Shown one piece after another: positions 1 through 21,553 of a DNA stretch of 64,000 bases. The stretch comes from Magnetococcales bacterium (GTDB lineage Bacteria; Pseudomonadota; Magnetococcia; Magnetococcales; Magnetaquicoccaceae), in NCBI GenBank assembly GCA_011089965.1, contig JAANAU010000011.1:1-64000 (forward strand), written 5' to 3'. A program made the position numbers and the translations under genes. The stretch's first letter is position 1. Each line of letters starts with the position of its first letter. Under the pieces are notes generated by a model that ran no database searches, had not been told where the DNA came from, and worked only from the letters and a program-made list of their open reading frames with translations.

Positions 1-1124
1 GACGTGGTGGTCGGTGCTGAAGTCGTGGAAGTCGAAACCGATGTGGTGGTGGTCGGGACCGAGGTCGTGGAAGTCGAAACCGACGTGGTGGTGGTCGGGA
101 CCGAGGTCGTGGAAGTCGAAACCGACGTGGTGGTGGTCGGGACCGAAGTCGTTGAAGTCGAAACCGACGTGGTGCTGGTTGAAACCGAGGTGGTGGAAGT
201 CGAAACCGACGTGGTCGTGGTTGGAATCGATGTGGTTGTTGTGGAGACCGAGGTGGTGGATGACGTGGATGTCGTGGTCGGAACCGATGTGGTGGTCGTG
301 GTGGTGGTCGGGGCCGAAGTTGTGGTGGTCGGGACCGAGGTTGTTGTTGTCGGGACCGAGGTTGTGGTGGTTGTGGCGCAACTCATGTTGTGCCCGGATT
401 CCATCATCCTGGTCTTCAGCAGCATGGGAGAAAGATAATATAATTGATCATCAACAATATTTTGGATGTATTGGGTATTGGTGTCGGCATTGTTGGCTTC
501 GATGCCACTGACCGGGCTGCGGGTCAGATAGGCCGAGGGACCGGCTGGGGTGGGCAGGATGTGTCCGGCACCGTTTTTGCCGTGGGAAACCACGACGGCC
601 ACGGCCTGGTCGGTCAGAAGCAGTCCGGTGGCCGAGTCCTGACGCACCTCCAGGTTGCTGGTGGTGGTGCAGGTGATGTCCGCATGATAGGGGGTGGAGA
701 GATGATAGGTGTAATAATTCCCCCAGTGGTCATAGGGGGTCAGTCCCAGATCCTTCCAGGGTAATACCCCATAGGCCAGACGGCAGTTGCTGCCATTCTC
801 GTCGCCCACGCCGTCGAATGCGGTTTGGGCCACATCGCTGGCATCGACCCCCACATCCGGGCAGGGGAGATGTTTGTTGGTGACCGCATACCAGATCAGG
901 GCTTCGTGGATCTTGTCCAGTGAGACGCTGGTTTTCTGTTTTTGTTGTTTGTCGCGCATGCTGGAGAGGGTGGCCAGGCCACCGCCGACCACGGCACTGA
1001 GAATGGAGAGCACCATCACCAGTTCGAGCAGGGAAAAGCCGCGATTGCTCCGGGTTTGTCTCTTCCGGTCAGAAGATTCGGGAGTGGGAAGCGGAGCGTC
1101 ATGCATGGCGGATTGGTTGGTCAT
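1..1124 (-). CDS. type IV pilin-like protein with Thr/Ser-rich repetitive tail (3' end outside window)
   Basis: Exported pilin-like subunit, probably a minor pilin of the MSHA-like pilus encoded upstream. The ATG at 1124 opens a charged leader ending in RSNRG, then a FSLLELVMVL hydrophobic stretch. That is a classic prepilin-peptidase site (cleavage after G29) with Glu at mature position 5. Residues 60-200 carry LPCPD and LPWKDLGL motifs shared with the neighbouring pilin-like gene at 1231-1986. From about residue 250 to the window edge the protein becomes almost pure Thr/Ser/Val/Pro. It is built from 14-residue units (42 bp period in DNA 1-168, degenerate to about 370), rich in TTTTSV and STSTTSVP. 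The reading frame is continuous into the edge, so the C-terminus is missing. A plus-strand Val/Glu-rich reading of the same DNA is an artefact. Pilin class is firm; the role of the tail is unknown, possibly a glycosylated or stalk-like segment. Confidence 0.8.
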   Translation of the reverse strand, partial: MTNQSAMHDAPLPTPESSDRKRQTRSNRGFSLLELVMVLSILSAVVGGGLATLSSMRDKQQKQKTSVSLDKIHEALIWYAVTNKHLPCPDVGVDASDVAQTAFDGVGDENGSNCRLAYGVLPWKDLGLTPYDHWGNYYTYHLSTPYHADITCTTTSNLEVRQDSATGLLLTDQAVAVVVSHGKNGAGHILPTPAGPSAYLTRSPVSGIEANNADTNTQYIQNIVDDQLYYLSPMLLKTRMMESGHNMSCATTTTTSVPTTTTSVPTTTTSAPTTTTTTTSVPTTTSTSSTTSVSTTTTSIPTTTTSVSTSTTSVSTSTTSVSTSTTSVPTTTTSVSTSTTSVPTTTTSVSTSTTSVPTTTTSVSTSTTSAPTTT

Positions 1125-1230: not shown

Positions 1231-1986
1231 TCATGGCGGCATTTGATTGACGGCACCGGTGATCTCGGCACAGGTGATGGTCAACAGACGGTCATTGAAG
1301 GGGGTGCCGTCTGTGGAAGAGAGGACGATCCGGGCGTTCTCGAAATCAATCGGCGGCGTGGTGCTGGTGGTGGAGGCTGTGGCGTTTCTCCCTTCCAGAT
1401 AGTGGGTGCGCAGCGTGGCTGCCGACGAGGTTGGGGGGCGTTGCTGGGTTTCCAGCGGATCGCCCGGGGCGATCAGGATGGCGGCATGGTTGCCTGCTCC
1501 GTTGAGGGTCAGGTTGCTGGTGGTGCAGGTATAGGGCATGGTCTGGTCAGAGCCGGTCTTGAAGGTGCCGGCAACCGCGTACCAGACAGGCGCGCCATCG
1601 CCGTCGTACAGGGGCGGCAGCCCCAGGCTCTGCCAGGGCAGAAAGCCGATCACCATCCGGTCATCCGCAGCACCGCACGGTGTGTTTTCCAAGGCGCTGG
1701 TGGCATATTGTGCCGGAGTTCCGGTGAACGGACAGGGCAGATGGCCGAACTGGGTGCGGTTGCCGGCATCCAGGGCTGCATGGGCGATCAGGGCGCGTTT
1801 GGCTTCGGCCAGGACAATGGCAGCCTTCTGGTCAGCCCGTTGGCGTTTGCTTTTGATCAACAACGCCTCGATGGCCAGAGAGACCCCGGCCATCAGAAAA
1901 ACGGCCAGCAGCACGAACAGGGCCGCCCCCCGTTCCGTGCGCCGGGGATCTGCCGTCGGCGTACCAGAGTTCAATTCACGGGGCAC
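1231..1986 (-). CDS. pilin-like / PilX-type minor pilus protein
   Basis: Small exported protein of about 251 residues in the pilus operon. The hydrophobic segment RGAALFVLLAVFLMAG follows a basic leader and resembles PilX/PulK-type N-termini; the Glu expected at mature position 5 is replaced. The body shares LPCP and GFLPWQSLGL motifs with the downstream pilin (1-1124), so the two are paralogous in their globular part. I chose GTG at 1986 because AAGGA sits 8-9 bases upstream and the start overlaps the preceding stop by 11 bases. An ATG at 2097 is in frame, but it would translate the polypurine lysine-rich tail of the upstream gene. Probably a minor pilin or priming subunit; the specific role is inferred. 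Confidence 0.7.
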   Translation of the reverse strand: MPRELNSGTPTADPRRTERGAALFVLLAVFLMAGVSLAIEALLIKSKRQRADQKAAIVLAEAKRALIAHAALDAGNRTQFGHLPCPFTGTPAQYATSALENTPCGAADDRMVIGFLPWQSLGLPPLYDGDGAPVWYAVAGTFKTGSDQTMPYTCTTSNLTLNGAGNHAAILIAPGDPLETQQRPPTSSAATLRTHYLEGRNATASTTSTTPPIDFENARIVLSSTDGTPFNDRLLTITCAEITGAVNQMPP

Positions 1987-2635
1987 TGGCTGGTTCCTTT
2001 TTGGGGGTTGGTGATTCTTTTTCTTTTTCTTTTCCTTCTTTTTCTTTTCCTTCTTTTTCTTTTCCTTCTTTTTCCTTTTCTTTCTTTTTTTCTTCATCCT
2101 CGCCGAGTCGGGCCTGGCTGCGTTCCGGTTCCGGGATCAGGTGTGAAGGACGGATCTGTTTGCTTTTGATGTCCAGGGTCTGGCCGGGCAACAGCAGATA
2201 GAGGTTGGCATCGTTGGGCAGGCGGATGGCCACCCCGTTGGCCGGATCGTCGGTGGGTTCCAGTTGGAAATTCTCCCCCTCATGGCCGTGGGCCGTTTCG
2301 TACTGTTTTTTGTTGAGCCAGACCAGAGAGGCCCCGCTCTCCTTGAGCAGCAGCCCGCCAACCGTCAGGTAGCGCGGCCCTTTGGGTTCCTTGACCTCGG
2401 TGAAGGGGGTGTTGCGCAGCACCCCTTCCAGGGTATCGCTTACCGGGGCAACCGGTTTTCTGACCTCCCGGCGGACCTGTTCGAGCTGGCTGCGTATCTG
2501 GGGCGTGGTGAACAGGCGGCCAAGTTGGGGTGCGCCTGCCTCCGGGGATTCGACCGCTGCCATGGCCGATCCGACCAGGCTGCTTCCGACTCCGATCAGC
2601 CAGAGCCATGACCTGTGCGTGCGCCGCAGCATCAT
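1976..2635 (-). CDS. MshK-like pilus assembly protein with Lys/Glu repeat tail
   Basis: Periplasmic protein of 219 residues with an N-terminal signal sequence (RRTHRSWLWLIGVGSSLVGS, cleavage near AMA). The central region around residues 75-160 (GVLRNTPF, LTVGGLLLKE, LVWLNKKQ) fits the small beta domain of MshK/PilP-type proteins, which link the inner-membrane platform to the secretin. The C-terminus is a striking low-complexity tail of Lys/Glu/Gly units (KEKEGKEKEG) ending in a proline-rich segment. The ATG at 2635 overlaps the stop of the PilO-like gene (ATGA), so the genes are translationally coupled. The function comes from operon position as much as from sequence. Confidence 0.6.
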   Translation of the reverse strand: MMLRRTHRSWLWLIGVGSSLVGSAMAAVESPEAGAPQLGRLFTTPQIRSQLEQVRREVRKPVAPVSDTLEGVLRNTPFTEVKEPKGPRYLTVGGLLLKESGASLVWLNKKQYETAHGHEGENFQLEPTDDPANGVAIRLPNDANLYLLLPGQTLDIKSKQIRPSHLIPEPERSQARLGEDEEKKKEKEKEGKEKEGKEKEGKEKEKESPTPKKEPASAP

Positions 2636-3261
2636 TTCTTCTGAGTCTCCTGTTCCCGGAAATTGAACCACTCCAGATGACACAACCCCTGGATATGCAC
2701 CTCGAAGCTCAGTTTGCCCGATTCCTGGGTCGGATCGCCCGTCGGTTGCAGCCGACACATGACGAAATGGTACAGCCCTGTTTTTTTGTTGGCCAGAAAA
2801 TCGATCAGGGCCACCAGATCCCCTTCATGCAGCAGGCCCAGATTCAGCTCCATGCGGCTGGCCTGGAGTTGCAATTCGGGCATGGCGGGCAGGGGAAAGG
2901 GGGTGGTGACCGGGCGTGCCGCCTCCAGTTTGTAGCGGATCGGGCCAGGGAGTTTGAGCTGCTGTTCTGCCTCCTTGAGGATCTCCACCCATTGCAGACG
3001 GGCGCCGGTGCCGACCACGCCGCGCTGGCGCAAGGTTTCATGCATGGGCAAAGCCTGGTTCAACTGCTGGTCAAGCTGGGCCTGCTGCTGTTTTTGTCCC
3101 TGAAGGGCGGTGATCTGGCTGCGCAGTTTGGCCAGGGCGTTTTCCGCATCCATATGATAGTCCCAGCCGCCGTACATGATGCCGCTGCCCACCAAAAGTG
3201 CCAGCAGCAGCAAAGCCAGCGACCGGTACAACAGTTTCCATTCAATGGGGCCGTTTTTCAT
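2632..3261 (-). CDS. MshJ/PilO-like pilus assembly protein
   Basis: Bitopic inner-membrane protein of 209 residues. It has a short cytosolic N-terminus, a transmembrane helix at about residues 10-32 (LALLLLALLVGSGIMYGG), a coiled coil at 40-75 (ALAKLRSQITALQGQKQQQ) and a periplasmic alpha/beta domain. This is the PilO/GspM/MshJ layout. In type IV pilus systems PilO dimerises with PilN and aligns the motor with the secretin. The gene overlaps the end of the PilM-PilN-like gene by 20 bases and the start of the MshK-like gene by 4, which supports a single transcript. Confidence 0.7.
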   Translation of the reverse strand: MKNGPIEWKLLYRSLALLLLALLVGSGIMYGGWDYHMDAENALAKLRSQITALQGQKQQQAQLDQQLNQALPMHETLRQRGVVGTGARLQWVEILKEAEQQLKLPGPIRYKLEAARPVTTPFPLPAMPELQLQASRMELNLGLLHEGDLVALIDFLANKKTGLYHFVMCRLQPTGDPTQESGKLSFEVHIQGLCHLEWFNFREQETQKK

Positions 3262-4807
3262 CGGGTTTCCGTTTGGCCAGAATGGTGCGCAGCACGAACT
3301 CGGCCCGTTCGCGTTGCCGGGTTTCGGTGTTTTGCAGGATGTCGTTTTGTCCCAGGTTCAAAGGAAGTTTGGTGGGTTGCACCTCCATGAATTCCGGCAA
3401 GGCGCGCAGATCGCGCATGAACTGCTCCACGCGGCTTAAGGCCTCTTTGAGACTTTGGAATGGCTCCACCCGTCCGACGATCACCAACTGTTGCGCAGGG
3501 GAGGAGGAGGTGCCGGGTTTGCCTGGAGCACGGTTTCCTCTGGGGGCGCTGGTTTCGGCGGTCAGCTCGTTTCTGGTCTGCCACTCCAGATTTTCCAGGA
3601 TCAGATGGTCATGCCGGGTGAGCAGCTCTCCGAGTGCGGCCAGTGCATCCCTGGGGTCCAGGGCATGTTTTTCCAGCTGTTCGGCCCATTGCACGGCAGC
3701 GATGATGCGGCGTCCCTCCTGGGGGGTGTGGCGGTTCGCACTCCGTCCCGTGGCCCGCTGGATCTCTTCGGCCTGCCGCGAGAGGTCAGGTTGTTGATCA
3801 CGCAGCGTGCGTCCCTGCCAGAAAAAGAACAGACAGACCAGAACACTCACGGCAAACAGGATGGCAGCAGCCCAGTTGAGCTTCCGTTCGAGCTTGCGGG
3901 TCGAAAACAGCACCAGATCTTCCGGACGGGCATAGTGGTTGGGCAAAGACCAGGCAATGACCGCCTGTCCAAACAGCCGGTCCATGCGTCCGGACTCCAG
4001 GGGAGCCTTGACATGGATCCGTTTGGCCAATGTTTCTGCTGCCAGCGGGTGGATGTGATAGCTCCCCACATCCCTGGGGCCTTGTTCCAGCAAAGCAAAC
4101 AGCGTGGCACCGCACAACACGTGCACATGCAATGGATTGTTCCAGGTATACAGCCGCTGGCTGACCAGATAGCCCTGCATGCGCACGATCTCCCCATGCA
4201 GAAACGGGACCAGATCCTCTTCTGGTGCCTGGAGCGGCAGGCGGCTCAACCGGCTGACCAGCATCTGTCCCTGTTGGACAAAGGTCTGGCGCAAGCCGCC
4301 GGAGTTGATGCTCAAGAGCAGAACATCCGTCTGTTTGGGATCCATGTGCTCCTTGAAGATGCGCGGGGTCAGAAGCGGAATCGACCAGATCCCGGCCAGA
4401 GGGAAATGCAGGGTGCGCAAGGTCTCCAGCCAGGGCAGCAGCAGATCTTCGGTGTCGTTCAGTCCGGAAAAGAGCACATTGTCCCGGGCAGGATCCGTGG
4501 GATCCCGTCCCAGGTAGGTCACGTGCCGGAAGGGGGTGTTGCGCAGCAGGCGGTTGGCGCGGTTTTCCAGCATGCGTGCGCGCGTCAACGGGTTGAGGTG
4601 CGGGATCTGTTCGAGTTTCAGCTCCTCTTCGGTCAGATCGATCAGGATGTGAAAGGTGGGTCGGTCATGCCAGGTTTCCAGGTGGGCGCGAAACCCTTTC
4701 ACTCCGTCGGACAGGGCAAACAGGGTGGGGGTGGTCTCTTCTGCGCCCTCGACGGGGTGGAGGACCAGATGGTGATTGGTGATGCATAAGAAGGCCGGTT
4801 TGAGCAT
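3242..4807 (-). CDS. MshI-like protein (PilM-like plus PilN-like domains)
   Basis: Protein of 521 residues. Residues 1-300 form a cytosolic domain resembling the PilM/MshI actin-like fold. A transmembrane helix follows at about 305-330 (AAAILFAVSVLVCLFFFW), then a PilN-like periplasmic part with a coiled coil and a conserved segment near residues 440-500. The N-terminal domain is clearly homologous to the N-terminus of the ATPase at 6003-8774: both contain L-x-D-x-x-EEEL, a VLF-G-L segment and a PLAGIWS or PIAGLWS motif. It lies 6 bases after the platform protein gene. In the pilus it would connect the ATPase ring to the PilO-like partner encoded next. Confidence 0.7.
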   Translation of the reverse strand: MLKPAFLCITNHHLVLHPVEGAEETTPTLFALSDGVKGFRAHLETWHDRPTFHILIDLTEEELKLEQIPHLNPLTRARMLENRANRLLRNTPFRHVTYLGRDPTDPARDNVLFSGLNDTEDLLLPWLETLRTLHFPLAGIWSIPLLTPRIFKEHMDPKQTDVLLLSINSGGLRQTFVQQGQMLVSRLSRLPLQAPEEDLVPFLHGEIVRMQGYLVSQRLYTWNNPLHVHVLCGATLFALLEQGPRDVGSYHIHPLAAETLAKRIHVKAPLESGRMDRLFGQAVIAWSLPNHYARPEDLVLFSTRKLERKLNWAAAILFAVSVLVCLFFFWQGRTLRDQQPDLSRQAEEIQRATGRSANRHTPQEGRRIIAAVQWAEQLEKHALDPRDALAALGELLTRHDHLILENLEWQTRNELTAETSAPRGNRAPGKPGTSSSPAQQLVIVGRVEPFQSLKEALSRVEQFMRDLRALPEFMEVQPTKLPLNLGQNDILQNTETRQRERAEFVLRTILAKRKPDEKRPH

Positions 4808-4813
4808 GAGGCA

Positions 4814-6022
4814 TCACAATTTGGCAATCAGATCATAAATCGGTCCCAATACCGACAGGATCACCCAGCCCATCAGACCGCCGAGGACCATGGTCAGAAC
4901 CGGTTCGATCAGGGTTTCCAGTTTGCTGATGGTCTCCTTGACCTCCCGGTCATAGAAGTAACTGACATTTTTCATGGAGATGTCCAGCCCGCCCGTGGAT
5001 TCCCCCACCTGGAGCATGCTCAAAACCAGAGGCGGAAAGAGTTTCACCTGGGCAAAGCTGTTGCTGATCTCCTTGCCTTCGGAGACCAGTTCCCGTGCCT
5101 GTTGCAACGCCTCCTGGATCACCAGGTTGGTGGTCAATCCCTCGCAGATGCGCAACGCCTCTAAAACCGTGATGCCCGAGCGGTACATCAAAGCAAAGGC
5201 ATTGGCAAAGCGGACCAGAATGATTTTGCGTGTCAGGGGACCGAAGAGCCAGAAGCGCAGTTTCATCCGGTCCACCTGGCGGCGCATGGTCCGGCTGATG
5301 CGGCAGCCGGCACGGATCAGAATCAAGGCGGCCACCGGCACGGAGAGGAGCAGCGGCCACCAGGCCACGATGAAATCCGAGGTGACGATCAACGCGCGGG
5401 TATGTATCGGGATCGACTCCCCCATCTCCTTGATGAAGGATATCAGTTGTGGCACCAGATAGATCATCATGAAAAAGACCAAACCGATCACGGTCACAGC
5501 CACCACCGACGGATAGATCATCACTTTTTTGGTCTGGGCCACCAGTTCATCCTCCCATTTGAGGGAGGCGGCCAGATCCTTGAAGATTGCGGCCAACTGT
5601 CCGGTCTTTTCGCCCATCAGCACCAGTTGCACGAAGATCGGATCAAAGATGCGCGGATGGCTGGACAAGGCATCGGACAAGGTTTTGCCGCTCTCCACAT
5701 CCTCCACCAGAGAGACGACCACATTGCGCAACCGGGGATTTTCCACCCCGTCGCGAAAGTCGGACAGCCCCTTGAGAATCGGGACACCCGCATGGGTCAA
5801 CTGCTCCATGTGGAAGCAGAACAGAATGACATCCTGGCGGGAGATCAAACGACGGGTCGGCAGCAGGCTGCCTTGACTGCCGGAGGCCAGGGGTTTCTGG
5901 CTGATCAGCATCAGTCCGAGGCGGTCCAAACGCAGTTCCAGGTCATCCAGGTTGGCAGCGTCCAGGGTTCCCTTCTGGACTTTGCCCTGGGAGTCGGTGG
6001 CTTTATACTGATATTTCGGCAT
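4814..6022 (-). CDS. GspF/MshG-type inner-membrane platform protein
   Basis: Polytopic inner-membrane protein of 402 residues in the PilC/GspF family, on which the pilus rotates and elongates. It starts MPKYQYKATD, the typical family N-terminus, and has two repeated T2SSF domains at about residues 70-195 and 275-395. The first contains MEQLTHAGVPILKGL, the second FANAFALMYRSGITVLEAL and QVGESTGG. Each repeat is followed by hydrophobic helices (VVAVTVIGLVFFMMIYLV; MVLGGLMGWVILSVLGPIY). The ATG at 6022 overlaps the end of the ATPase gene by 20 bases. Length and domain order are normal for the family. Confidence 0.9.
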   Translation of the reverse strand: MPKYQYKATDSQGKVQKGTLDAANLDDLELRLDRLGLMLISQKPLASGSQGSLLPTRRLISRQDVILFCFHMEQLTHAGVPILKGLSDFRDGVENPRLRNVVVSLVEDVESGKTLSDALSSHPRIFDPIFVQLVLMGEKTGQLAAIFKDLAASLKWEDELVAQTKKVMIYPSVVAVTVIGLVFFMMIYLVPQLISFIKEMGESIPIHTRALIVTSDFIVAWWPLLLSVPVAALILIRAGCRISRTMRRQVDRMKLRFWLFGPLTRKIILVRFANAFALMYRSGITVLEALRICEGLTTNLVIQEALQQARELVSEGKEISNSFAQVKLFPPLVLSMLQVGESTGGLDISMKNVSYFYDREVKETISKLETLIEPVLTMVLGGLMGWVILSVLGPIYDLIAKL

Positions 6023-8774
6023 GTGTACCCTGCAATGGTCCGATCCGTTCCTGTCGGGTGCCTCGGCCAAGCACCCGGGTGATTTCATCGATGCTGGTAT
6101 CGCCGTTCAGCACATGGCGGACCCCGTCTACCCACATGGGGCAAAATCCCCGTTCCCGTGCGGCCTGGCGGAACTCTGCCGGGTGGGCGCTGCCAGAGAT
6201 CAGGTCGTGGATGTGGTCGTCGGTCAGCAAAGCCTCCATGACACAGAGGCGTCCCTTGAATCCGGTCCCGCTGCACGCCGGGCAGCCGACGGGTCGATAG
6301 AGTGTGGTTGGCTCTGGCCAGGCCCCACGCTCCAGACCCAATGCCTGGCCATGGCTGTTCTCCATGGGATAAGGGGTTTTGCAGCGGGAGCAGAGTCTGC
6401 GCACCAGCCGTTGGGCCAGCACGCCGATGATGTTGCCGGCCAGGGTGTGGGGTTCCAGACCCATGTTGAGCAGTCGGGGAATGGCTCCGAGCGCGGAGTT
6501 GGTGTGCAGGGTGCTGTAGACCTGATGACCGGTCATGGCAGCGCGCAGGGCCATCTGGGCGGTCTCCATGTCCCGGATCTCTCCCACCAGGATGATGTCC
6601 GGATCCTGGCGCAGAATGGAGCGGATCCCGGTGGCGAAATCGAGGCGGATCTGTTCGTTGACCGAGGTCTGGAGGATCGACGGCATTGGGTATTCCACCG
6701 GATCCTCCTGGGTCATGATGTTGCGTTCCGTGGCGTTCAGGGTGGAAAGGATGGAATACAGGGTGGTGGTCTTGCCGCTGCCGGTGGGACCGGTGACCAG
6801 GATGATCCCTTCGGGTTGGCCCATCATGTGATCGATGCAACGCCGGTTGTGGGCCGAGATCCCCAGAGAGTCCAGATCCATGATGCGTCTGGCCCGGTCG
6901 AGGATGCGCAGGACGATGTTTTCACCGTGGATGGTCGGCTGGGTCGAGCCGCGAAAATCGATGGTGCGTCCGGCCAGGGTCATGGAGAAGTGACCGTCCT
7001 GGGGCAGCCGGGTTTCGGCAATGTCCATGCCGCACATCACCTTGAGACGCACGGTGAGAATGGCCTGGAACTTCTGGTGCAAAGAACGGATCTGGCGCAG
7101 CACCCCGTCGATGCGGTAGCGGATCTGGATGAAACCGGCCATGGGACCGAAATGGATGTCCGAGGCATCGTGCTTGATGGCATCGGTGAGCAGGGCATTC
7201 ACCAGTCGCATCACCGGATGGCTGAACTCCCCGGCATTGGAGGAGAGGCTCTCCAGATCCACCTCGCCGCTTTCGAGTTCGTGGAGAATGCCGTCCACCG
7301 ACAGTTCAAAGCCGTAGATCCGGTCCAATGCTTCGGCCACCTCGGTTTCGGTGGCCAGGCGTGAGTCCACGGTGGTGCCGGGGGGCAGGCGGGCCATCAG
7401 CCGGTCCAGGGTGGCCATGTCCAGGGTGTTGGCCATGGCCACGATCAGTTGTTTCCGGTCTGGATTCCAGGCCACGGGGAGCACCCCGTGACGCTTGGCA
7501 AAGCTTTTGGAGATCAGACGTGCTGCCTCCGGGTCCAGGGTTTCGTGATTGAGGTCGATGCGCTCTTGTTGCAGGATGTCGCCGAGCAGATCGCGCATCT
7601 GCAATTCGGTCAGAAAGCCCAACGAGACCAGGATCTTGCCCAACGGTTGTTGCAGACGGTTCTGTTCGGTCAGGGCAATGGCGAGCTGGTCTGCCGTGAT
7701 CGCCCGTTTGGCCACCAGCAGATCCCCGAGCCTTTGGGCCGGTGCGGGTGTGCCGGCTCCGGCCTCCTGTTCCCTTTTTGCGCCGTGACCGGGCAAGGCT
7801 GCCAGCCACTGTTGGATCTTTTGACCCCAGATCGGGGCCATGGGCAAGGGATAACGGGCATGACTCCGCGCCGTGGTCATCAGATAGTGACCGAACAGCA
7901 GATCCGTATCCTCTGCGCCAGGCGCTGTGGTCATGCCGATCCGCCGGGCTGCCTGGCCAGACTCCAGCAGATGGCAGGTCACCAGCGGGGTGTGGCTGGC
8001 CTCGATCCGGGCGCGCAACGGTTGCAGGCGTGACTCCGGACAGAGAATGAAGGCATGGATCAGGGCATCTCTGGGCACCAGACGCAGACTGGCCAGATAC
8101 ATCCGGGTTTTGTCGATTTCGGTCAGGATCGACTGGGCCAGCTGGGTTGGACTCTCCGGCAAGCCGGGAATCATGCGGCTCAAAACCGTGCGCCCCTCGT
8201 GAAAGCAGGTCTGGCGTTGCCCTTCGGCATTGAAGGAGACCAGCAGGGCGTGATCCACCCGGATCGGTGTTACCTGATGCAGCATGCCACGGCTCAACAG
8301 GGTCACGGACCACAGACCGGCAATGGGCCGTTTCCGGGCATGCAGCAGATCGATCCAGGGTTGCAGGCGGGTTGGTTCCGTCAATCCGCAGAACAGCACC
8401 CGTTCGGATCCGCTTTGGTTTTTGCCCTGGGCTTCGGCCAGACGAAACGAGGTGAGGCGGAACAGTCGCTCCTGACGGCGCTGAATCATGTTGCGACGAT
8501 CCAGCCCATGCAGGCCGGGGAGCAACTCCCGGTTCAACTCCTCTTCCATGATGTCGGCCAACAGATAGACCGGACCCGGTGTCGGGTGTTGTTCCAGATG
8601 ACGCGCACACGCCGCGACCCCTTCGGGCGTGTTTGGAAAAATGACGCGCTGCCCCAGTTTTTGTTCATGCCAAACGAGCAGGGAGACGGTTTGATCGTGG
8701 ATGATGAGCAGCAAACGGTGGGGGAACAACCGGGGGGCAACACTCATCAGTACCGAGGAGAATGGGGGCAGCAT
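6003..8774 (-). CDS. type II/IV secretion ATPase fused to an N-terminal PilM/MshI-like domain
   Basis: Protein of 923 residues, far longer than the usual 560-600 for GspE/PilB/MshE. Residues 1-310 are homologous to the MshI-like protein encoded two genes downstream (shared EEEL, VLFCGL and PIAGLWSV motifs). About 340-500 is the GspE N-terminal domain (RLGDLLVAKRAIT). The C-terminal ATPase follows, with Walker A GPTGSGKTTT at about 662, TGHQVYSTLHTNSA and a zinc-binding CSRC/CPAC pair near 790-830. It would power pilus extension from the cytosol. An in-frame ATG at 8747 is an alternative start; the 8774 ATG has a purine-rich leader. The gene is divergent from the diguanylate cyclase. The fusion is visible directly in the sequence. 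Confidence 0.85.
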   Translation of the reverse strand: MLPPFSSVLMSVAPRLFPHRLLLIIHDQTVSLLVWHEQKLGQRVIFPNTPEGVAACARHLEQHPTPGPVYLLADIMEEELNRELLPGLHGLDRRNMIQRRQERLFRLTSFRLAEAQGKNQSGSERVLFCGLTEPTRLQPWIDLLHARKRPIAGLWSVTLLSRGMLHQVTPIRVDHALLVSFNAEGQRQTCFHEGRTVLSRMIPGLPESPTQLAQSILTEIDKTRMYLASLRLVPRDALIHAFILCPESRLQPLRARIEASHTPLVTCHLLESGQAARRIGMTTAPGAEDTDLLFGHYLMTTARSHARYPLPMAPIWGQKIQQWLAALPGHGAKREQEAGAGTPAPAQRLGDLLVAKRAITADQLAIALTEQNRLQQPLGKILVSLGFLTELQMRDLLGDILQQERIDLNHETLDPEAARLISKSFAKRHGVLPVAWNPDRKQLIVAMANTLDMATLDRLMARLPPGTTVDSRLATETEVAEALDRIYGFELSVDGILHELESGEVDLESLSSNAGEFSHPVMRLVNALLTDAIKHDASDIHFGPMAGFIQIRYRIDGVLRQIRSLHQKFQAILTVRLKVMCGMDIAETRLPQDGHFSMTLAGRTIDFRGSTQPTIHGENIVLRILDRARRIMDLDSLGISAHNRRCIDHMMGQPEGIILVTGPTGSGKTTTLYSILSTLNATERNIMTQEDPVEYPMPSILQTSVNEQIRLDFATGIRSILRQDPDIILVGEIRDMETAQMALRAAMTGHQVYSTLHTNSALGAIPRLLNMGLEPHTLAGNIIGVLAQRLVRRLCSRCKTPYPMENSHGQALGLERGAWPEPTTLYRPVGCPACSGTGFKGRLCVMEALLTDDHIHDLISGSAHPAEFRQAARERGFCPMWVDGVRHVLNGDTSIDEITRVLGRGTRQERIGPLQGTHAEISV

Positions 8775-8966
8775 GCAGCTCTTCTTTCCGGATCAAGGCG
8801 GTAATGGCAGATTTCCCAGCATGGGGTGTCGATATCATGAATGCACCCCTTGTGCCATTCTAATGCATCTGTCTGTTTCAAACAACGGACCGTCATGCCT
8901 TTTTGGCTGTGAATGTCGGGAAGCTTGAAAAACAGGAACAGTGCCGTCAATATGTTGAATCCGTCG

Positions 8967-8985
8967 TGTCAACCAGAAGTTGACA
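8967..8985. promoter_or_regulatory. perfect 7-bp inverted repeat, candidate operator
   Basis: TGTCAAC and GTTGACA are separated by five bases in the divergent intergenic region (8775-9023). The right arm contains TTGACA, which could be a -35 element; 17 bases later there is only a poor -10 (ATTCAT). The palindrome is 39 bases upstream of the chosen ATG at 9024. Nothing else was recognised in this 249-base gap. Confidence 0.35.
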
Positions 8986-9023
8986 GTTTCTTACAAACAT
9001 TTATTCATCTTGTCGGAACTCCA

Positions 9024-10748
9024 ATGACCGCACATGCACACAAGTCCAGAATGTCGCTCAGCATCAGTGCCCGACTGGTTCTCTCGACTGCCGGGGCCGT
9101 TATCCTGGTGATGCTGGGGTTCATTCATTTCTTCATGATGCACCAGAAAGAGACCATCCTGGCCCAGAACGAACGCACCATGCGGCTGATGATCAGCAAC
9201 ATCAGCAGTGCCTTGCGCACCATCATGACCGCAGGTTATGCCCAGATCGCCCAGGAGTTTGCCCGCGACATCCAGAGAAATCCGGCGGTATTGAATTTTC
9301 GCATCCTGCGCATCAATGGAGAGGAGGCGTTTCAGGACAATGCCACCATTCGTGAGGTGAACCACCGTCTGGGGGAGGAGGAGTTCATGCCCCGTGACCA
9401 GGAGACGCGCCTGGAGGTGTTGGCACCGGACCATCCGGCGCTCCGCAAGGTGTTGGAGAGTGGTCAGATCATCACCCTGATGGAGGGTCAGACCAACGAC
9501 CACCGGGTGACCTATCTGGCACCCATAGAGCGGATTGGCAAATGCGGCAAGTGTCATGGGAGCGATCCCAAATATCGCGGGGTGATGATGATCACCACCT
9601 CTTTGGCCCAGGCCCAGTCCGATATCGAAGCGACCCGTCAGGAGGCGGTCGTTGTGGCGCTGATCGCCCTGTTTTTTGTGTTGCTGCTTGTCTATCTGAT
9701 GATTCGTGGCTTTTTGATCACCCCTCTGAGCCGCATCCGGGGGGCCATGGTGCGGGTGGCCAACGGCCATCTGGAAGAGCGCGTCCATGTGCCCGGTCAC
9801 GACGAAATCAGCGAGATCACCGTCACCTTCAACGAGATGGCCAAACGGCTGCTCAAGACCTATACCGGTCTGCAAATGGAGCAGGACAAACTCTCCACCA
9901 TCATCATCGGTGCCCAGGAAGGGATCGTGGTCACGGATGGCCAGCAGCAGATCGTGCTGGTCAACCCGGCGGCAGAGCGGCTGCTGGGCAAGGATTTCGA
10001 CCAGATCCGCGCAGCGGGTTGGGAGAATCTGGTGGATGACCCGGATTTCCTGCGCACCTTTGTGGCCAAGGGTGGCCAGGACATGCCCAATCTGCTGGTC
10101 TTCAACGGACGCGCCCTGAAGATCCATGCCGCCACCATCACGGCCACGGACCAGTCGCCGATTGGCACCTCGATCATGATCCGCGATGTCACGGATGAAA
10201 AGAAACTGGAGGACAAACTCCGGGAACTCTCGGTCACCGATGCCCTGACTCAGCTCTACAACCGGCGCGGACTGCTCGAAGTGCTGGAAAAGGAGATCAA
10301 ACGGTCGCAACGCTACAACCATTTCATGGGCTTTCTGCTCTTTGATGTGGACCACTTCAAGAAATTCAACGACACCTATGGTCATGACCAGGGGGACCGG
10401 GTGCTCCAGGCCATTGGCCGGGTCATGCGCGAGTATTTCCGCAAGGTGGATACCCCGTGCCGCTATGGGGGGGAGGAGTTCTGCGTGGTGCTGCCCGATA
10501 CCAGCCCCAAAGGGGCCTATATCGTGGCCGAACGGTTCCGGCGTCAGGTGGAGGCCATGGTGGTGGACAATCTCAAGGTCACGGTCAGCATCGGTGTGGC
10601 CACCATCCCGGCCAGCGAGATCAACAAGGTGGATGATTTGATCAAAAAGGCCGATGACATGCTGTACGAGGCCAAACGCAACGGACGCAATCAGGTCAGG
10701 ATGTCGGTCCACCTGGAGGATCTGGAGAGCCTCAATCAGGAGGTTTGA
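9024..10748 (+). CDS. membrane diguanylate cyclase with periplasmic c-heme motif, HAMP and PAS
   Basis: Protein of 574 residues that would make cyclic di-GMP. A transmembrane helix (about 15-38) leads into a periplasmic domain of some 170 residues. That domain ends with CGKCHG at about 174, a CxxCH covalent heme site as in DUF3365/Tll0287-like sensors. A second helix (209-229), HAMP, PAS (about 290-400) and GGDEF follow. The catalytic motif is intact (GGEEF near 481), and RKVD lies exactly five residues upstream, matching the RxxD inhibitory site. The start ATG 9024 was preferred over upstream codons because it directly precedes the basic leader and helix. The 3' end overlaps the convergent TPR gene by 17 bases. 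It is a plausible redox or gas sensor setting c-di-GMP for the adjacent pilus genes. Confidence 0.85.
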   Translation: MTAHAHKSRMSLSISARLVLSTAGAVILVMLGFIHFFMMHQKETILAQNERTMRLMISNISSALRTIMTAGYAQIAQEFARDIQRNPAVLNFRILRINGEEAFQDNATIREVNHRLGEEEFMPRDQETRLEVLAPDHPALRKVLESGQIITLMEGQTNDHRVTYLAPIERIGKCGKCHGSDPKYRGVMMITTSLAQAQSDIEATRQEAVVVALIALFFVLLLVYLMIRGFLITPLSRIRGAMVRVANGHLEERVHVPGHDEISEITVTFNEMAKRLLKTYTGLQMEQDKLSTIIIGAQEGIVVTDGQQQIVLVNPAAERLLGKDFDQIRAAGWENLVDDPDFLRTFVAKGGQDMPNLLVFNGRALKIHAATITATDQSPIGTSIMIRDVTDEKKLEDKLRELSVTDALTQLYNRRGLLEVLEKEIKRSQRYNHFMGFLLFDVDHFKKFNDTYGHDQGDRVLQAIGRVMREYFRKVDTPCRYGGEEFCVVLPDTSPKGAYIVAERFRRQVEAMVVDNLKVTVSIGVATIPASEINKVDDLIKKADDMLYEAKRNGRNQVRMSVHLEDLESLNQEV

Positions 10749-12390
10749 CCGGAGGCAGTGCAGGGGCTGTGGTGCGTTGTTCGAGAATGGCGATGCGGCG
10801 CTGGATGGCCTGGGGGTCGAATCCGCCGCTCTTGTACTGCTCCTGAAGGCGCAGTGCATCCCGATAGTGGGTCAGGGCGCTTTTTTCCTGTCCCATCCGG
10901 TCCAGGGTGACGGCCAGGTTGAAGAGGATGTCCGGATTGGTGCGATCCAGCCGGTAGGCGTTGAAAAAGGCGGCCTGGGCCTCGGGCCAGTTTTTCTGCG
11001 CCACCAGGATGTTGCCCAGCACAAAGTGCAGATGCGGTTCGTTGGGTGATTGACGCAACAGGTGCTGGATCTGGCTGGCCTCCCGGAATGAATCGGAGTT
11101 GCCGTTCAACGATGCCAGGGCGGCAATGGCCAGGGTGTCGTGGGGGTTTTCCTTGAGAATGGCCTGATACAAGGATCGGGCCTCTTCGGGTTTGCGCTCG
11201 CGGATGGCCACGGAAGCCAGGCTGGAGATGGCCGTGTGGTTGTGCGGTTCGATGGTCAAAGCCTGCTCAAAATGTCTTCTGGCTGCGGCCAGATCCCCTT
11301 TTTGCAATGCCTTGCGTCCTTCGTGCATGGGATTGGCCGGGGGTTTGGCTGCGGTTTTTCCGGGCAGTCGGACCGGTGGCTGCTGGACCTGGGGCGCTGG
11401 CGGCAGTTGGGGCTGGACTGCGTGGGCTGCGGGAGGCGCGGGTTGGGCTGTGGCTGTGGGTGCGGGTGCGGGTGTCGGTTCCGCAGATGACGGCGGCGGA
11501 GCGGCAGCAGGCGTTGCGGGTACTGCCTGGGACGCGACCTGGGGCGGGGGATCTGCCGGGCGGGCTGGATTGGGAGTTGTCACGGGCGCTGGAGCCTGAA
11601 CAGGTGGCGCGGCAGCAGCAGGCGGGGTGGCGGCAATGCGCACCGGCGCATTGGTCTCGCTCCTGGAGGTCGGGGCGCGGGGTGCAGGCTTGCTGCTGAC
11701 CAGATCCGATTGGCCCTGAAAGTGTTCCAGAACAAAATAGCCGCTGGCCAGGCCGCATCCCAGCAGCAGGGCACTGGCTGCACGCAGCCACTTTTTCCGG
11801 TTGGCGTTGGCCATGGCCTTGCGTGGCACACGGCCAGGCGGTGCAGCCACCGGGGCAGCGGGTGCGTCCGGTTGTTCGGTTGGGGCCGGAGTGGGTGTGG
11901 GGGATGGTGTGGGTGCGAGCAGTGCCAGCGGCAGCAACGCCATCGCCTCGACCGGGCGCGCATCCGCGTCCGACGGGGCTGGGGTGGCTGCGGTGGTTGC
12001 CGTGGCTGCACTCTCCTCCGGCTCTGGCAGAGGTTCTTCCGGGGTGAACTCGAACATGGACAGGGTGGGTTCGATCCGGATTTCGGCTGGGGTGTCGCTC
12101 TCTGCCGGTTGCGTGCCGTTCTGTTCGGTCAGATCGGTTTCATCCAGCCAATCCATGTCCCAGGAGTAGCTCTCATCGAGCGTGGTTGGCTCCGGGGTGG
12201 GAGGTTGGGGATGCTCCCGCGCCTCCTCCGGTTCATGAAAGCGGATTTTCACCAGCTCCAGGGCGCTCAATGTGGGTTCCGGAGTGGGCAGATCCCCAGG
12301 TGTCGGGCCATCGGACGCCTCTGGAGTGGAAGCGATCTCCGGATAAATTTCGTTCCCCGTCTCTCGGAGCATGTCCAGAAGCAGGCTCAT
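10732..12390 (-). CDS. MshN-like TPR protein
   Basis: Protein of 552 residues. It has a long acidic, Pro/Glu-rich cytosolic part (1-190), one transmembrane helix at about 203-222 (ALLLGCGLASGYFVLEHF), a Pro/Ala-rich periplasmic linker (230-370) and a C-terminal TPR array at about 375-530 (ALQKGDLAAARRHFEQAL, FNLAVTLDRMGQEKSALTHY). This is the MshN arrangement of MSHA loci, where the gene follows the secretin as here. ATG 12390 overlaps the secretin stop (ATGA). TPR proteins of this position assist secretin assembly or stability. The linker is low-complexity and GC-rich, so its length is less certain in function than in sequence. Confidence 0.75.
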   Translation of the reverse strand: MSLLLDMLRETGNEIYPEIASTPEASDGPTPGDLPTPEPTLSALELVKIRFHEPEEAREHPQPPTPEPTTLDESYSWDMDWLDETDLTEQNGTQPAESDTPAEIRIEPTLSMFEFTPEEPLPEPEESAATATTAATPAPSDADARPVEAMALLPLALLAPTPSPTPTPAPTEQPDAPAAPVAAPPGRVPRKAMANANRKKWLRAASALLLGCGLASGYFVLEHFQGQSDLVSSKPAPRAPTSRSETNAPVRIAATPPAAAAPPVQAPAPVTTPNPARPADPPPQVASQAVPATPAAAPPPSSAEPTPAPAPTATAQPAPPAAHAVQPQLPPAPQVQQPPVRLPGKTAAKPPANPMHEGRKALQKGDLAAARRHFEQALTIEPHNHTAISSLASVAIRERKPEEARSLYQAILKENPHDTLAIAALASLNGNSDSFREASQIQHLLRQSPNEPHLHFVLGNILVAQKNWPEAQAAFFNAYRLDRTNPDILFNLAVTLDRMGQEKSALTHYRDALRLQEQYKSGGFDPQAIQRRIAILEQRTTAPALPPVKPPD

Positions 12391-14126
12391 AGGATGGACC
12401 GGTCCCGCACCCATTGGGGTGACAGGGGCTGATTCCGCTCCTGGTGCATTTGTTTGTCCGGATCGGTCAACAGCTCCCTGGGTTCGTTCATGAGGATCGG
12501 ACGCAGAAAGACCACCAGTTCCGATTTTTCCGCTTCCTGGCTGCGATAGCTGAACAGGCTCCCCACCACCGGCAGCTCGGACAAGACCGGCACTCCTTCC
12601 AGTTTGTTGTCCCGGTTGTGTTTCATCAGCCCGCCCATGACCGCCACATGGCCGTTGGGCACCCGCAGGATCGAATCCATCTCTTGTACCTGTACCACCG
12701 GCACTTGAGGAGGAGTGGCGCCAGCGGTGGCGCTCCTGAGTTTCGGATCTGGGTTTTCAACCCACTTGTCCACCCTTTGGATCGTGGGGCGGATGTTCAG
12801 CGTGATGATGTCCGATTCGCTGATTTGCGGGGTGACCTGCATCAAGAATCCAATGGGTACGGTACGGATCTGGGTTTCGCTGTTGTTCGTGTACCGGACT
12901 ATGCCTTGTTCCAACATGGCCTGTTCGTTGATGCGCATCTCGAAATAGACTTCGTTGGTGGTCACGCGCAATACGGCAGTTTGGTTGTTGAGTACCGTGA
13001 TTCTGGGCGAGGAGATCACCTTGGTCTTGCCGAACGAAGAGAGCAGGTGCAGTGTGGCACCGATGTCCCGTTCACCCAACACATCCGAAAGAAAGGGCAC
13101 CTTGGTGCTGTTCAGGGTCAAGGCCGTACCCGGGGTGCCACTGATCCGATTGGCCAGAGTGGAGATGCGGTTGCCGCCATCGGTCACGCCATTGCTTTTC
13201 AGCATGGTCCAGTCGATGCCGGATTGATGTTTGTCCGACAGATTCACCTCAGCGACCGTGGCCTCGATCAGCACCTGACGCCGGGCATTGTTCAACACCC
13301 GGTCGATGAACTCCTGGACCTCACGATGCTGACGCTGGGTGGTCAAAACGCTGACGACACCGGTGGATTCGTTCCAGATCACTTTTTTTCCGATCTCCTG
13401 GCCGTGGACATCCTTTTCTTTCTTGCTCTCCTTGTCGTCTTTGGCATCCTTGGAATCGATCTCATAGTGGATCCTGTCGCTCACGATCTCGTTGAGATTG
13501 GCAATCAGATTTTTCCAGAAATCTATCGTGGAGGCAGAGGCCAGCTTGAGAGAGGAGCTGTTGCTGATGGTCGGCGCATTGGCTCCGGAGGAGGCGACCG
13601 TGGTGGTCATGGAGACATCGGACTCCATTTTTCTGGACGTGGTGACGTAATCGACCCGATAGTTGCGTCGGAACGGCAGATCCGGTTCCACGAACAGCAC
13701 GTTCTCCTTGATCTGGTAGCGGATGTTGGACTGGCTGACAATGCGGTCCAGGATCCGGGGCAGGGTCTGATCAATGGCATTGAGCGTGATCTGGCCGCTG
13801 ATGCCCGGGACAATATCCACATTCATGTTGGCATCCCTGGCCAAGGCAAACAGCACCTCGCGCACCGGGACATCGGTGACCACCACGGTATAGGTGGCCA
13901 TGGGGGTGGATCTTTCTTCGCCCTTGGGCAGGAACGGGGAGACTTTGACGGTTTCGGGAATCGAGTCGTCCGGTGCGTCGGTTTGGGTGGTTTTTTCAAT
14001 GCGCTCTTTTTGGGGCGCATCCACCAGCTCCTGCACCGGAGGAGCGGGCACGCAGCCCACAACGAAGGAGAGGAGACCTGCGCTGAGGCGACGCAACCAG
14101 GGCGTGGATAAAGGTGTGGCGTTCAT
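12387..14126 (-). CDS. mshL: MshL-like outer-membrane secretin
   Basis: Secretin of 579 residues forming the outer-membrane pore for the pilus. The leader ends in LLSFVVGC, a lipobox with Cys25, so it is probably a pilot-independent lipoprotein secretin. An STN/N0 domain lies around 75-130 (VREVLFALARDANMNVDIVP), followed by N1-type repeats with a charged insertion near 230-250 (DAKDDKESKKEKD). The C-terminal secretin domain contains EATVAEVNLSDKHQSGIDW, KTKVISSPRITVLNNQ, VPIGFLMQVTPQIS and GGLMKHN. Length and motifs fit MshL better than PilQ, since no AMIN domains are seen. It is coupled to the MshN-like gene downstream. Confidence 0.88.
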   Translation of the reverse strand: MNATPLSTPWLRRLSAGLLSFVVGCVPAPPVQELVDAPQKERIEKTTQTDAPDDSIPETVKVSPFLPKGEERSTPMATYTVVVTDVPVREVLFALARDANMNVDIVPGISGQITLNAIDQTLPRILDRIVSQSNIRYQIKENVLFVEPDLPFRRNYRVDYVTTSRKMESDVSMTTTVASSGANAPTISNSSSLKLASASTIDFWKNLIANLNEIVSDRIHYEIDSKDAKDDKESKKEKDVHGQEIGKKVIWNESTGVVSVLTTQRQHREVQEFIDRVLNNARRQVLIEATVAEVNLSDKHQSGIDWTMLKSNGVTDGGNRISTLANRISGTPGTALTLNSTKVPFLSDVLGERDIGATLHLLSSFGKTKVISSPRITVLNNQTAVLRVTTNEVYFEMRINEQAMLEQGIVRYTNNSETQIRTVPIGFLMQVTPQISESDIITLNIRPTIQRVDKWVENPDPKLRSATAGATPPQVPVVQVQEMDSILRVPNGHVAVMGGLMKHNRDNKLEGVPVLSELPVVGSLFSYRSQEAEKSELVVFLRPILMNEPRELLTDPDKQMHQERNQPLSPQWVRDRSIL

Positions 14127-14159: not shown

Positions 14160-15389
14160 TTAACGGGTCTGACGGAACCGTGACTTGCAAGAATAAAGCC
14201 ATACAGCACTGGCCATGGTGCTGCTCATCAGGAAAAACAATACAAACCAGAGGATCACCCGGATCTCATCCAAAGAATCCTGGATCAATTCCAGATGAAA
14301 GCTTTTGCGTCCCACATCCTCCAGAGCCGGGGTGATCAGCGGGGCCAGCTCCGCTTCGATCTCTTCGGCCAGGCGGTCGAATTCGGCCATCAGGGGGTTG
14401 CCGGCGCGGGTGCCTTTGTGGATGTAGGCCTCGGCCATGGCCATGCCCTGGGCATAGAAGCGGTCAAAGCGTGGCCCCAGGCGCAGGCACCGTTCGGCAA
14501 ACTCCGGATGGTCCGACTGGGCAACCCGCTGGTTCAAAAGCGGGAGCAGGGCGTGAAACCGCTCTGCGGCCTGTCGGGCGTGTTCCCGGCCTTCATCCAG
14601 GCCATCCTGTCCACGGGTGGCCCCCAGATCGGTCAGCCACTGCTGGATGTGGAGCGCCAGCCCCTGAAGCTCCTGGGCCAGAAGGCTCAGGGGCAGATCG
14701 GCCTGGTTGGCAGAGGCGCTTTGAGTCAATTCGGTCATCGACTGGACATAATGGGCACGGGCCTGTTTGCCCATCAGATAAAACCATACCAGGTTCGACA
14801 ATCCGGACGGGGTGGTGAATGCCTCCGGGTGGCGACGGACTTTCAAACGCCAGTTTTCGTGTTCGGTTTCGTGGCGGGTCAGGATGTCGTTCAGGGTGGC
14901 GCGCAGACCGTCCGCCTCAGAGTCGAAGAGCTTCATCTTCTGGTTGCCCTGAAAGGTGCCCTGGCCGATATAGGCATGGGCCATCTCGATGCCCAGTGTA
15001 TAAAAGCGTACAAAGCGTTCATGCACAGGGGGCAGTTGTGTCGGGGTTTGGTCGTCCCGGGGAAAGGTGTTCAGCAACTCCCCCAGATTGACCAGACCGG
15101 CCAGAAACTCCTCCATGGCACTGCGCGCCCGGACAAATCCCTGGTCCTGATGATCCAGCCCCAAAGTGGCGGAGATGTCGGTCAACTGGTTTTGCACGCG
15201 TGAAACCGAATGGATCAGATCCTGGCTTTGCACCATGCGTTTGCGTGCGGTGTGAAAGGCGAATTTTTCCAGAAAGAGCGCCTGGTGGTTGTGGAAAACC
15301 AGCAGATTGACGCCGCACAGCAGCGTGAGCAGCAGGCTGGACAGGAGTACAGCCAGAGGAAGACGCAAGGGTAGGGGCGGCATGGGCAT
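14160..15389 (-). CDS. membrane protein with two tandem helical sensory repeats and no output domain
   Basis: Protein of 409 residues with a transmembrane helix near each end (about 10-32 and 378-400). The periplasmic part contains two copies of the same helical module. The first reads RFVRFYTLGIEMAHAYIGQG...GNQKMKLFD (about 127-165); the second reads RFDRFYAQGMAMAEAYIHKG...GNPLMAEFD (about 310-345). The motif resembles ligand-binding regions of some methyl-accepting chemotaxis receptors. No kinase, cyclase or methyl-accepting domain follows; only a short basic tail remains. It sits between the extension ATPase and the secretin, on their strand. Two start codons (15389, 15383) are equally possible. 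The function is unknown; it may pass a periplasmic signal to the pilus machine. Confidence 0.7.
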   Translation of the reverse strand: MPMPPLPLRLPLAVLLSSLLLTLLCGVNLLVFHNHQALFLEKFAFHTARKRMVQSQDLIHSVSRVQNQLTDISATLGLDHQDQGFVRARSAMEEFLAGLVNLGELLNTFPRDDQTPTQLPPVHERFVRFYTLGIEMAHAYIGQGTFQGNQKMKLFDSEADGLRATLNDILTRHETEHENWRLKVRRHPEAFTTPSGLSNLVWFYLMGKQARAHYVQSMTELTQSASANQADLPLSLLAQELQGLALHIQQWLTDLGATRGQDGLDEGREHARQAAERFHALLPLLNQRVAQSDHPEFAERCLRLGPRFDRFYAQGMAMAEAYIHKGTRAGNPLMAEFDRLAEEIEAELAPLITPALEDVGRKSFHLELIQDSLDEIRVILWFVLFFLMSSTMASAVWLYSCKSRFRQTR

Positions 15390-21366: not shown

Positions 21367-21553
21367 GTGGGGGACTCCTGCGCAAGGGCGATACGGCAAG
21401 AACGGCGAATTTTCGGACACCCATCAACTTACAATTCAGGTGCCAAAACCGAACCATCCAGAAAATTTCGTCCATCCCGCGCGGATGTTGGATTTATCGG
21501 CAGGCAGGCACTTTTCGAGGGGGGATGACCAGGTGGTCAGAGGGGGGCTGATT

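Follow-up and report, generated by a model that had tools for sequence, protein, structure and literature searches.

We found a gene, present in many members of the magnetotactic order Magnetococcales, in which a putative copy of the cytoplasmic half of an MshI/GspL-like adaptor is joined to the front of an MshE-type pilus assembly ATPase. The gene was identified in a 64,000-nucleotide stretch of a Magnetococcales genome (GCA_011089965.1, contig JAANAU010000011.1, positions 1 to 64,000), hereafter the window, where it occupies 6003..8774 on the minus strand and encodes 923 residues that comprise a PilM/GspL-cyto-like domain, a linker, an MshEN region and a T2SSE ATPase. By analogy with known machines we somewhat favour, at a little better than even chances, the reading that the duplicated adaptor half would be a built-in dock that makes the motor resident. 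The component parts are known; the joint between adaptor and ATPase is, to our knowledge, new.

The sequence-only reading had placed the gene at 6003-8774, and this position was correct. A single frame runs from 8774 to 6003 with zero stops, and the plus strand over the same interval is broken by stops. A frameshift, or an ATPase gene that actually starts near residue 340, had been named as a possible source of error. No stop and no frameshift were found, the in-frame starts between residues 300 and 420 are not preceded by a Shine-Dalgarno-like motif, and the long frame recurs in 27 genomes; frameshift and late start were ruled out on these grounds. The actin-like adaptor domain (residues 1-310; 7845..8774) was delimited by homology and fold, and the poorly conserved linker behind it (residues 311-346; 7737..7844) by its ratio of nonsynonymous to synonymous substitution (dN/dS) and variable length. 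The MshEN region (residues 347-491; 7302..7736) is covered by Pfam MshEN at 404-491, the NCBIfam c-di-GMP_motif domain at 348-397 and the alignment, and the T2SSE traffic ATPase core (residues 519-900; 6075..7220) by Pfam PF00437 (E 4.5e-126), all on the minus strand. Pfam found nothing in the protein ahead of residue 348. No transmembrane segment above 1.6 (Kyte-Doolittle, 19 residues) was detected in the window fusion or in 31 other fusions. The free MshI-like protein has such a segment, and it is only the cytoplasmic half of the adaptor that is fused.

The N-terminal approximately 310 residues had been described as homologous to the first 300 or so residues of an MshI-like protein encoded two genes downstream, with one platform gene (4814-6088) in between, and both the homology and the gene order were borne out. 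With BLASTP, residues 51-299 of the fusion matched the free MshI-like protein (3242-4807, minus strand) with 31% identity (E 6e-24). A profile-profile comparison (hhalign), suggested beforehand as a check, set the N-termini of 30 fusions against those of 22 free MshI and upheld the relationship with a probability of 100 and E 4.4e-80 over 296 aligned columns. MshI is named here from its position in clusters resembling those of mannose-sensitive haemagglutinin (MSH) pili. Judged by the profile comparison and the domain tree described below, the fused domain is a true paralogue of the N-terminus of the co-encoded MshI.

Structural modelling gave the type of domain. The AlphaFold2 model of residues 1-320, based on a 13-sequence alignment (the window fusion and L069-L076), had a mean predicted local distance difference test score (pLDDT) of 87.2 and a predicted template modelling score (pTM) of 0.87. 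Foldseek ranked PilM (5eou_B, E 1.1e-10) at the top, with Thermus PilM, FtsA and GspL-cyto lower. In VIA-align 2 the model reached Z 15.3 with PilM (285 residues, 4.4 A), 14.9 and below with FtsA and 14.0 with EpsL-cyto. According to the model the fused N-terminus is an actin fold of the PilM/GspL-cyto type, nearest to PilM, with FtsA tied within 1 Z; given this tie, the assignment to PilM/GspL draws on the fold together with the cluster context and the homology to the GspL-like MshI. The proposal of a PilM/MshI-like domain at the ATPase N-terminus thus stood on the MshI homology and the modelled fold. Pfam PilM_2 and T2SSL matched none of the 30 fusion N-terminal domains and none of the 22 MshI N-terminal domains, and PHROGs gave no useful match.

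Lysine is absent from all 30 fusions at the alignment columns covering residues 29-34, which form the phosphate-loop region. Passages of PMC6325625 describe Thermus PilM as binding ATP, with a lysine important for this, which makes nucleotide binding by the fused domain doubtful; the match of positions comes from the alignment only. An extra, mainly hydrophobic segment before the first strand was observed in 29 of the 30 aligned fusions (residues ~1-18 in the window fusion) and is missing from most free MshI. The segment is weakly amphipathic, as 7 of the 29 scored beat their shuffles at p 0.05 or below, which is suggestive of an amphipathic N-terminal helix that could act as a membrane anchor.

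Next we looked at the distribution of the fusion. A search with the N-terminal domain matched 31 of 61 relatives, and one with its profile matched 31 of 48 Magnetococcales genomes, nearly all of the latter being drafts of many contigs. In 40 fetched regions and the window, 32 genes encoded the domain and the ATPase as one continuous frame; 30 are complete and two are truncated by contig ends. Fusions were found in 27 of the 48 Magnetococcales genomes searched, belonging to seven of 14 families, and five genomes had two fusion genes. The search for the same fusion elsewhere, also proposed beforehand, was therefore positive, and a fusion peculiar to the window genome was ruled out by its presence across the order.

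Outside the order, where at most the best 5-10 candidates per genome were scored, the domain was matched in 7 of 350 genomes of the phylum, in 72 of 369 genomes of the class of G363 and in 110 of 200 genomes of its order, which amounts to about 183 different non-Magnetococcales genomes. No fusion was found among these, and all but ten of the frames were too short to include an ATPase. The ten long frames (737-961 residues) and two shorter ones were inspected as candidate fusions and rejected: all 12 are a free MshI with a frame that extends back across MshG, and in each the ATPase is encoded by its own gene upstream. In these loci the free MshI relative stands two genes behind an unfused ATPase (12/12 checked), and the same unfused layout was found in two named betaproteobacterial records, a Burkholderiales metagenome-assembled genome and Thauera.

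Two quick trees bear on the origin of the fusion. In the tree of 50 ATPases the fusions formed one branch (approximate likelihood ratio test, SH-aLRT, 96, starred), which includes one unfused row, L067, cut by a contig end; one own-genome ATPase (L005) is absent from this tree, as it was not found by the motif filter. In the tree of 72 N-terminal domains, those of the fusions and 15 MshI of the same cluster type formed one branch (98, starred), apart from seven other Magnetococcales MshI and 18 MshI of other orders. A single clade of fused domains was not rejected (approximately unbiased test, p 0.42), and the domain tree itself needs two changes, which is compatible with a second origin. The simplest reading of both trees is that MshI was duplicated within the lineage and then fused once, and a single origin is probable on this evidence.

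Over eight pairs, dN/dS was 0.14-0.31 for the N-terminal domain, 0.04-0.17 for the ATPase and 0.16-0.98 for the linker, the ratios of several pairs being rough since their dS exceeds 1. The linker value was above that of the N-terminal domain in seven of the eight pairs, and linker length ranged from 28 to 110 residues among the 32 fusions. By these ratios, the extra domain is under purifying selection.

Over its ATPase part (residues 347-910) the fusion shares 55% identity with the unfused ATPase at 15492-17210, and in this respect, too, the sequence-only reading, which had pointed to a second, non-fused ATPase, held. The T2SSE core of the window fusion has Walker A (GPTGSGKT) at 662-669 and intact GEIRD/Walker B region and HT motifs. 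Four cysteines (C795, C798, C831 and C834; 6273..6392, minus strand) are invariant in the alignment of 30 fusions; such a four-cysteine motif is a trait of extension-type, or assembly-type, ATPases. The NCBIfam equivalog scores were below cut-off for both GspE (523.7 vs 630) and PilB (497 vs 676), and by these scores the fused ATPase belongs to the GspE/PilB superfamily and to neither equivalog. The MshEN domain was recognised by Pfam with 52.1 bits against a cut-off of 23.1 and the c-di-GMP_motif domain of NCBIfam with 54.7 against 38. Passages of PMC5013675 define the MshEN receptor for cyclic di-GMP (c-di-GMP) as two 24-residue motifs. Compared with the motif given there, the fusion has Arg for Gly at position 10 of motif I, and Pro for Arg and Ile for Gln in motif II. 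In both window ATPases motif I is near complete and motif II degenerate, with the first Arg and last Gln replaced, and two genes for c-di-GMP enzymes are found in the vicinity. Judged by the motifs, control by c-di-GMP through MshEN is not supported as a sure claim.

The fusion loci were of more than one kind. A gene of MshG type was present in 30 of the 32, and in the remaining two the fused gene itself is cut by the contig. In the stretches read, many of which end at contig edges, MshI was seen in 14 of the 32 loci and an unfused ATPase in seven, while a free MshI was not found in the fetched stretch of the other 18. L040 has, on one strand, secretin, TPR protein, unfused ATPase, fusion, MshG, MshI, MshJ and MshK, and here a single MshG accompanies two motors. 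Among the 13 fusions of a second clade, neither MshI nor an unfused ATPase was found in the stretches read; 12 of the 13 have MshG and the other is cut. MshI was likewise not found in the stretch of L052, which is outside this clade. In three genomes, each at least 93% complete (G013, G023 and G024), the fusion was the sole match to the domain profile. The 12 of 30 aligned fusions that have GE[IV]HD for GEIRD and LWQDPD for LRQDPD (L037, L042, L045-L047, L049 and L055-L060) are second-clade members, and the activity of these proteins may differ; the window fusion keeps the usual letters at both.

Several known systems help to interpret the joint. According to passages of PMC6325625, Thermus PilM binds PilF and couples it to PilN. 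Passages of a 2014 review (PMC4471445) state that GspE binds GspL and that PilMN is the counterpart of GspL, and call the link between PilM and the motor very likely yet not formally shown. A 2024 review (PMC11656802) describes PilM as a stator socket contested by the extension and retraction ATPases. The GspE-GspL pair of the type II secretion system (T2SS) (complex 4pht; EpsL-cyto 1yf5) has the same two domain folds, and there the adaptor and the ATPase form a complex. GspL, anchored in the membrane, has the same plan as the free MshI-like protein. T2SS keeps its ATPase and its adaptor as two proteins, whereas in the fusion the extra adaptor domain is covalent and without membrane anchor. 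In type IVa pili (PilM with PilB or PilF; PilM 5eou, 2ych) the nearest fold to the fused domain, PilM, is adaptor or stator for the ATPase (passages of PMC6325625 and PMC11656802); it is free and binds ATP (PMC6325625), in contrast to the covalent domain with an aligned Lys in 0/30. EpsL is called a natural PilM-PilN fusion in a passage of PMC6325625, which is a different joint from that of Magnetococcales. The same paper describes Thermus PilF with three GSPII domains, likewise an enlarged N-terminus of an assembly ATPase, but formed by tripling of its own N-domain and with no adaptor fusion. MSH pili share with the window the cluster content of secretin, TPR protein, ATPase, MshG, MshI, MshJ and MshK, and the window cluster differs in having two ATPases, one of them fused, and a degenerate MshEN motif II. 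In the full-text literature searched, with most subscription journals outside its scope, no report of a PilM/GspL-ATPase fusion was found. A term search of a 2019 superfamily census gave no such fusion and no match to Magnetococc-, and a similar search of the 2016 MshEN paper no match to Magnetococcus.

The window genome thus has the adaptor domain covalently joined to the motor and a free adaptor kept beside it, as had been claimed, with the refinement that only the cytoplasmic half is fused. The joined parts would function as motor plus adaptor. In T2SS and type IVa pili the adaptor serves to tether the ATPase to the membrane complex, and each fused subunit brings such a domain along, which leads to the built-in-dock reading. 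On this reading, a Magnetococcales ancestor would have gained a copy of the adaptor half ahead of an MshE-type assembly ATPase and retained it. The motor, presumed hexameric from its family, would carry one adaptor per subunit (1:1) on a flexible linker. By comparison with GspE-GspL and PilB-PilM, the fused domain would pack in cis against its own MshEN ring. It would also contact either the membrane complex of MshI and MshJ (GspL-GspM-like) or the product of the platform gene that directly follows. The fused motor would thereby be resident at the machine, and the unfused ATPase of the cluster would dock in trans via the free MshI. A bolder claim, made tentatively and in our opinion rather unlikely, is that these machines are a class of type IV filament machine in which the motor has its own stator ring, with six covalently attached adaptors in each hexamer that would keep the motor from being exchanged, and that the second clade runs on a platform without GspL/MshI, against the rule of exchangeable motors in a fixed PilM socket. 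There is debate over how the PilM/GspL adaptor fits the ATPase hexamer, over their ratio and over the exchange of motors on a fixed ring of adaptors. A natural fusion that selection has preserved across the order, next to an unfused paralogue in a cluster with a single platform gene, would set the ratio at 1:1; it is also a ready, stable construct for structure determination that could help to settle the motor-adaptor fit. In addition, an MshI-type domain that was missed by the Pfam models here gains a new protein context.

Some observations weigh against a dock of this type. PilM and FtsA are alike in fold, and function is thus not given by the fold alone. Local hhalign of the N-terminal domain against the GspL or PilM families was not significant (best P 0.018), and as sequence profiles fall short of GspL/PilM, the kinship stands on fold; this test is insensitive, as the known GspL-PilM pair reached only P 0.007 in it. 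The full-length model was poor (pLDDT 61, pTM 0.37) and did not predict a contact between the N-terminal domain and the ATPase. Furthermore, 17 of the 48 genomes of the order had no match to the domain profile, among them three near-complete genomes of family f11 (G027, G034 and G038), so that part of the order lacks the system. Four genomes (G008, G009, G022 and G028) had a domain match without a verified fusion, and two frames were left unclassified, namely L017 (G008, frame 496) and G017:C48 (frame 662).

Other explanations were weighed against the same data. The fused ATPase might act only with the unfused one, in a hetero-hexamer or as a PilU-like helper, with the extra domain governing how the two are mixed or in which order they use a shared platform. 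The window cluster with two ATPases and one MshG, the seven of 32 loci with an unfused ATPase and the same-strand run of L040 that carries both would fit such an arrangement, but we think it unlikely, as the stretches fetched for the second clade show no unfused partner and the window fusion has the full catalytic motif set. The fused domain could also be a brake or decoy that covers its own MshEN face and bars the free MshI until a signal arrives. This is in line with a variable linker adjoining MshEN and with the adjoining c-di-GMP enzyme genes in the window; however, motif II has lost the Arg and Gln given in the passages of PMC5013675, and the GGDEF neighbour is not kept in other fusion loci, and we regard this possibility as improbable.

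Slightly more improbable is that the fused domain assumes the whole role of MshI, with the extra N-terminal segment as a peripheral membrane anchor. Second-clade loci with fusion and MshG and no MshI in the stretch, the three genomes without another domain match and the hydrophobic-leaning segment of 29/30 aligned fusions agree with this replacement, although a free MshI adjoins the fusion in the window and 13 other loci, few of the segments beat their shuffles (7/29) and the periplasmic half of MshI has no substitute in the fusion. Finally, the domain may not be part of the ATPase at all and reflect a frameshift, misassembly or wrong start, as the genomes of the order are nearly all many-contig drafts and possible starts exist at residue 327 (TTG) and residue 354 (GTG). 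To this we give hardly any credence: the architecture is the same in 27 genomes with a variable linker and a constrained domain, and occurs in two separate record series (JAD.. and PEAJ/PDZX).

The window corresponds to contig C31 of a 3.66-Mb genome in 80 contigs, and unless stated otherwise its cluster genes are on the minus strand. In order of transcription they are the unfused MshE/PilB-type ATPase, second of the cluster (15492..17210), a helical membrane protein of 409 residues without family match (14160..15389), the MshL-like secretin (12387..14126; Pfam Secretin; MshL TIGR02519 E 1.3e-70, 237.7 bits vs cut-off 250.2), a TPR protein in MshN position (10732..12414), the fused ATPase, and a platform protein of GspF/PilC/MshG type (4814..6088; Pfam T2SSF; GspF TIGR02120 E 1e-93, below cut-off). 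Relatives of the platform protein align from residue 23, and its true start is thus probably near 6022. Then follow the free MshI/GspL-like adaptor (3242..4807), an MshJ/GspM-like small membrane protein (2632..3261; conserved position, weak GspM match E 0.002, below cut-off), a protein in MshK position without family match (1976..2758), a further conserved cluster gene without informative family match (1231..2097) and a prepilin signature, GFSLLELV followed by a hydrophobic stretch (963..1040), whose frame leaves the contig start. The free adaptor consists of the shared domain (1-300), a transmembrane segment (~308-335) and a periplasmic part, which makes it GspL-like rather than PilM-like. 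The nearest other platform genes of the window genome are only 26-30% identical to this MshG, so that fused and unfused motors appear to share one MshG.

Passages of PMC6668835 list mshA, E, G, L and M as mandatory for an MSH pilus system. Counterparts of mshE, mshG and mshL are all present in the window cluster, the secretin with a score under the MshL cut-off, and the evidence for a pilin in the window is the prepilin signature at the contig edge. Homologues of an AAA protein, possibly MshM-type, are on contigs C3 and C50, with none in the window cluster. An AAA protein, possibly MshM/ExeA-type, is divergent beside the fused gene in L056 (6858-8012, minus strand) and L058 (5157-6896, minus strand), the latter with a SPOR domain.

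A GGDEF diguanylate cyclase with a GGEEF motif (8913..10748, plus strand) sits between the TPR gene and the fusion, divergent from the latter, and a PAS-GGDEF-EAL protein (19270..21420, minus strand) is encoded upstream. The GGDEF gene was considered as a conserved partner and rejected, as none of the other fusion loci fetched showed it; in L037 and L046 the GGDEF genes sit elsewhere in the stretch. Prepilin-like genes were found near the fusion in L049, L052 and L056, with an ABC ATPase-like gene as well in L049 and L056. In L049 (9748-15293) the genes close to the fusion and MshG are those of an ABC ATPase and a membrane protein of ABC-2-like type together with three that are prepilin-like; the locus possibly encodes a filament linked to an ABC transporter. 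Short repeats, in plus-strand reading GTEVVEVETDVVVV, occupy window positions 4-438 at the contig start beside the pilin-like genes.

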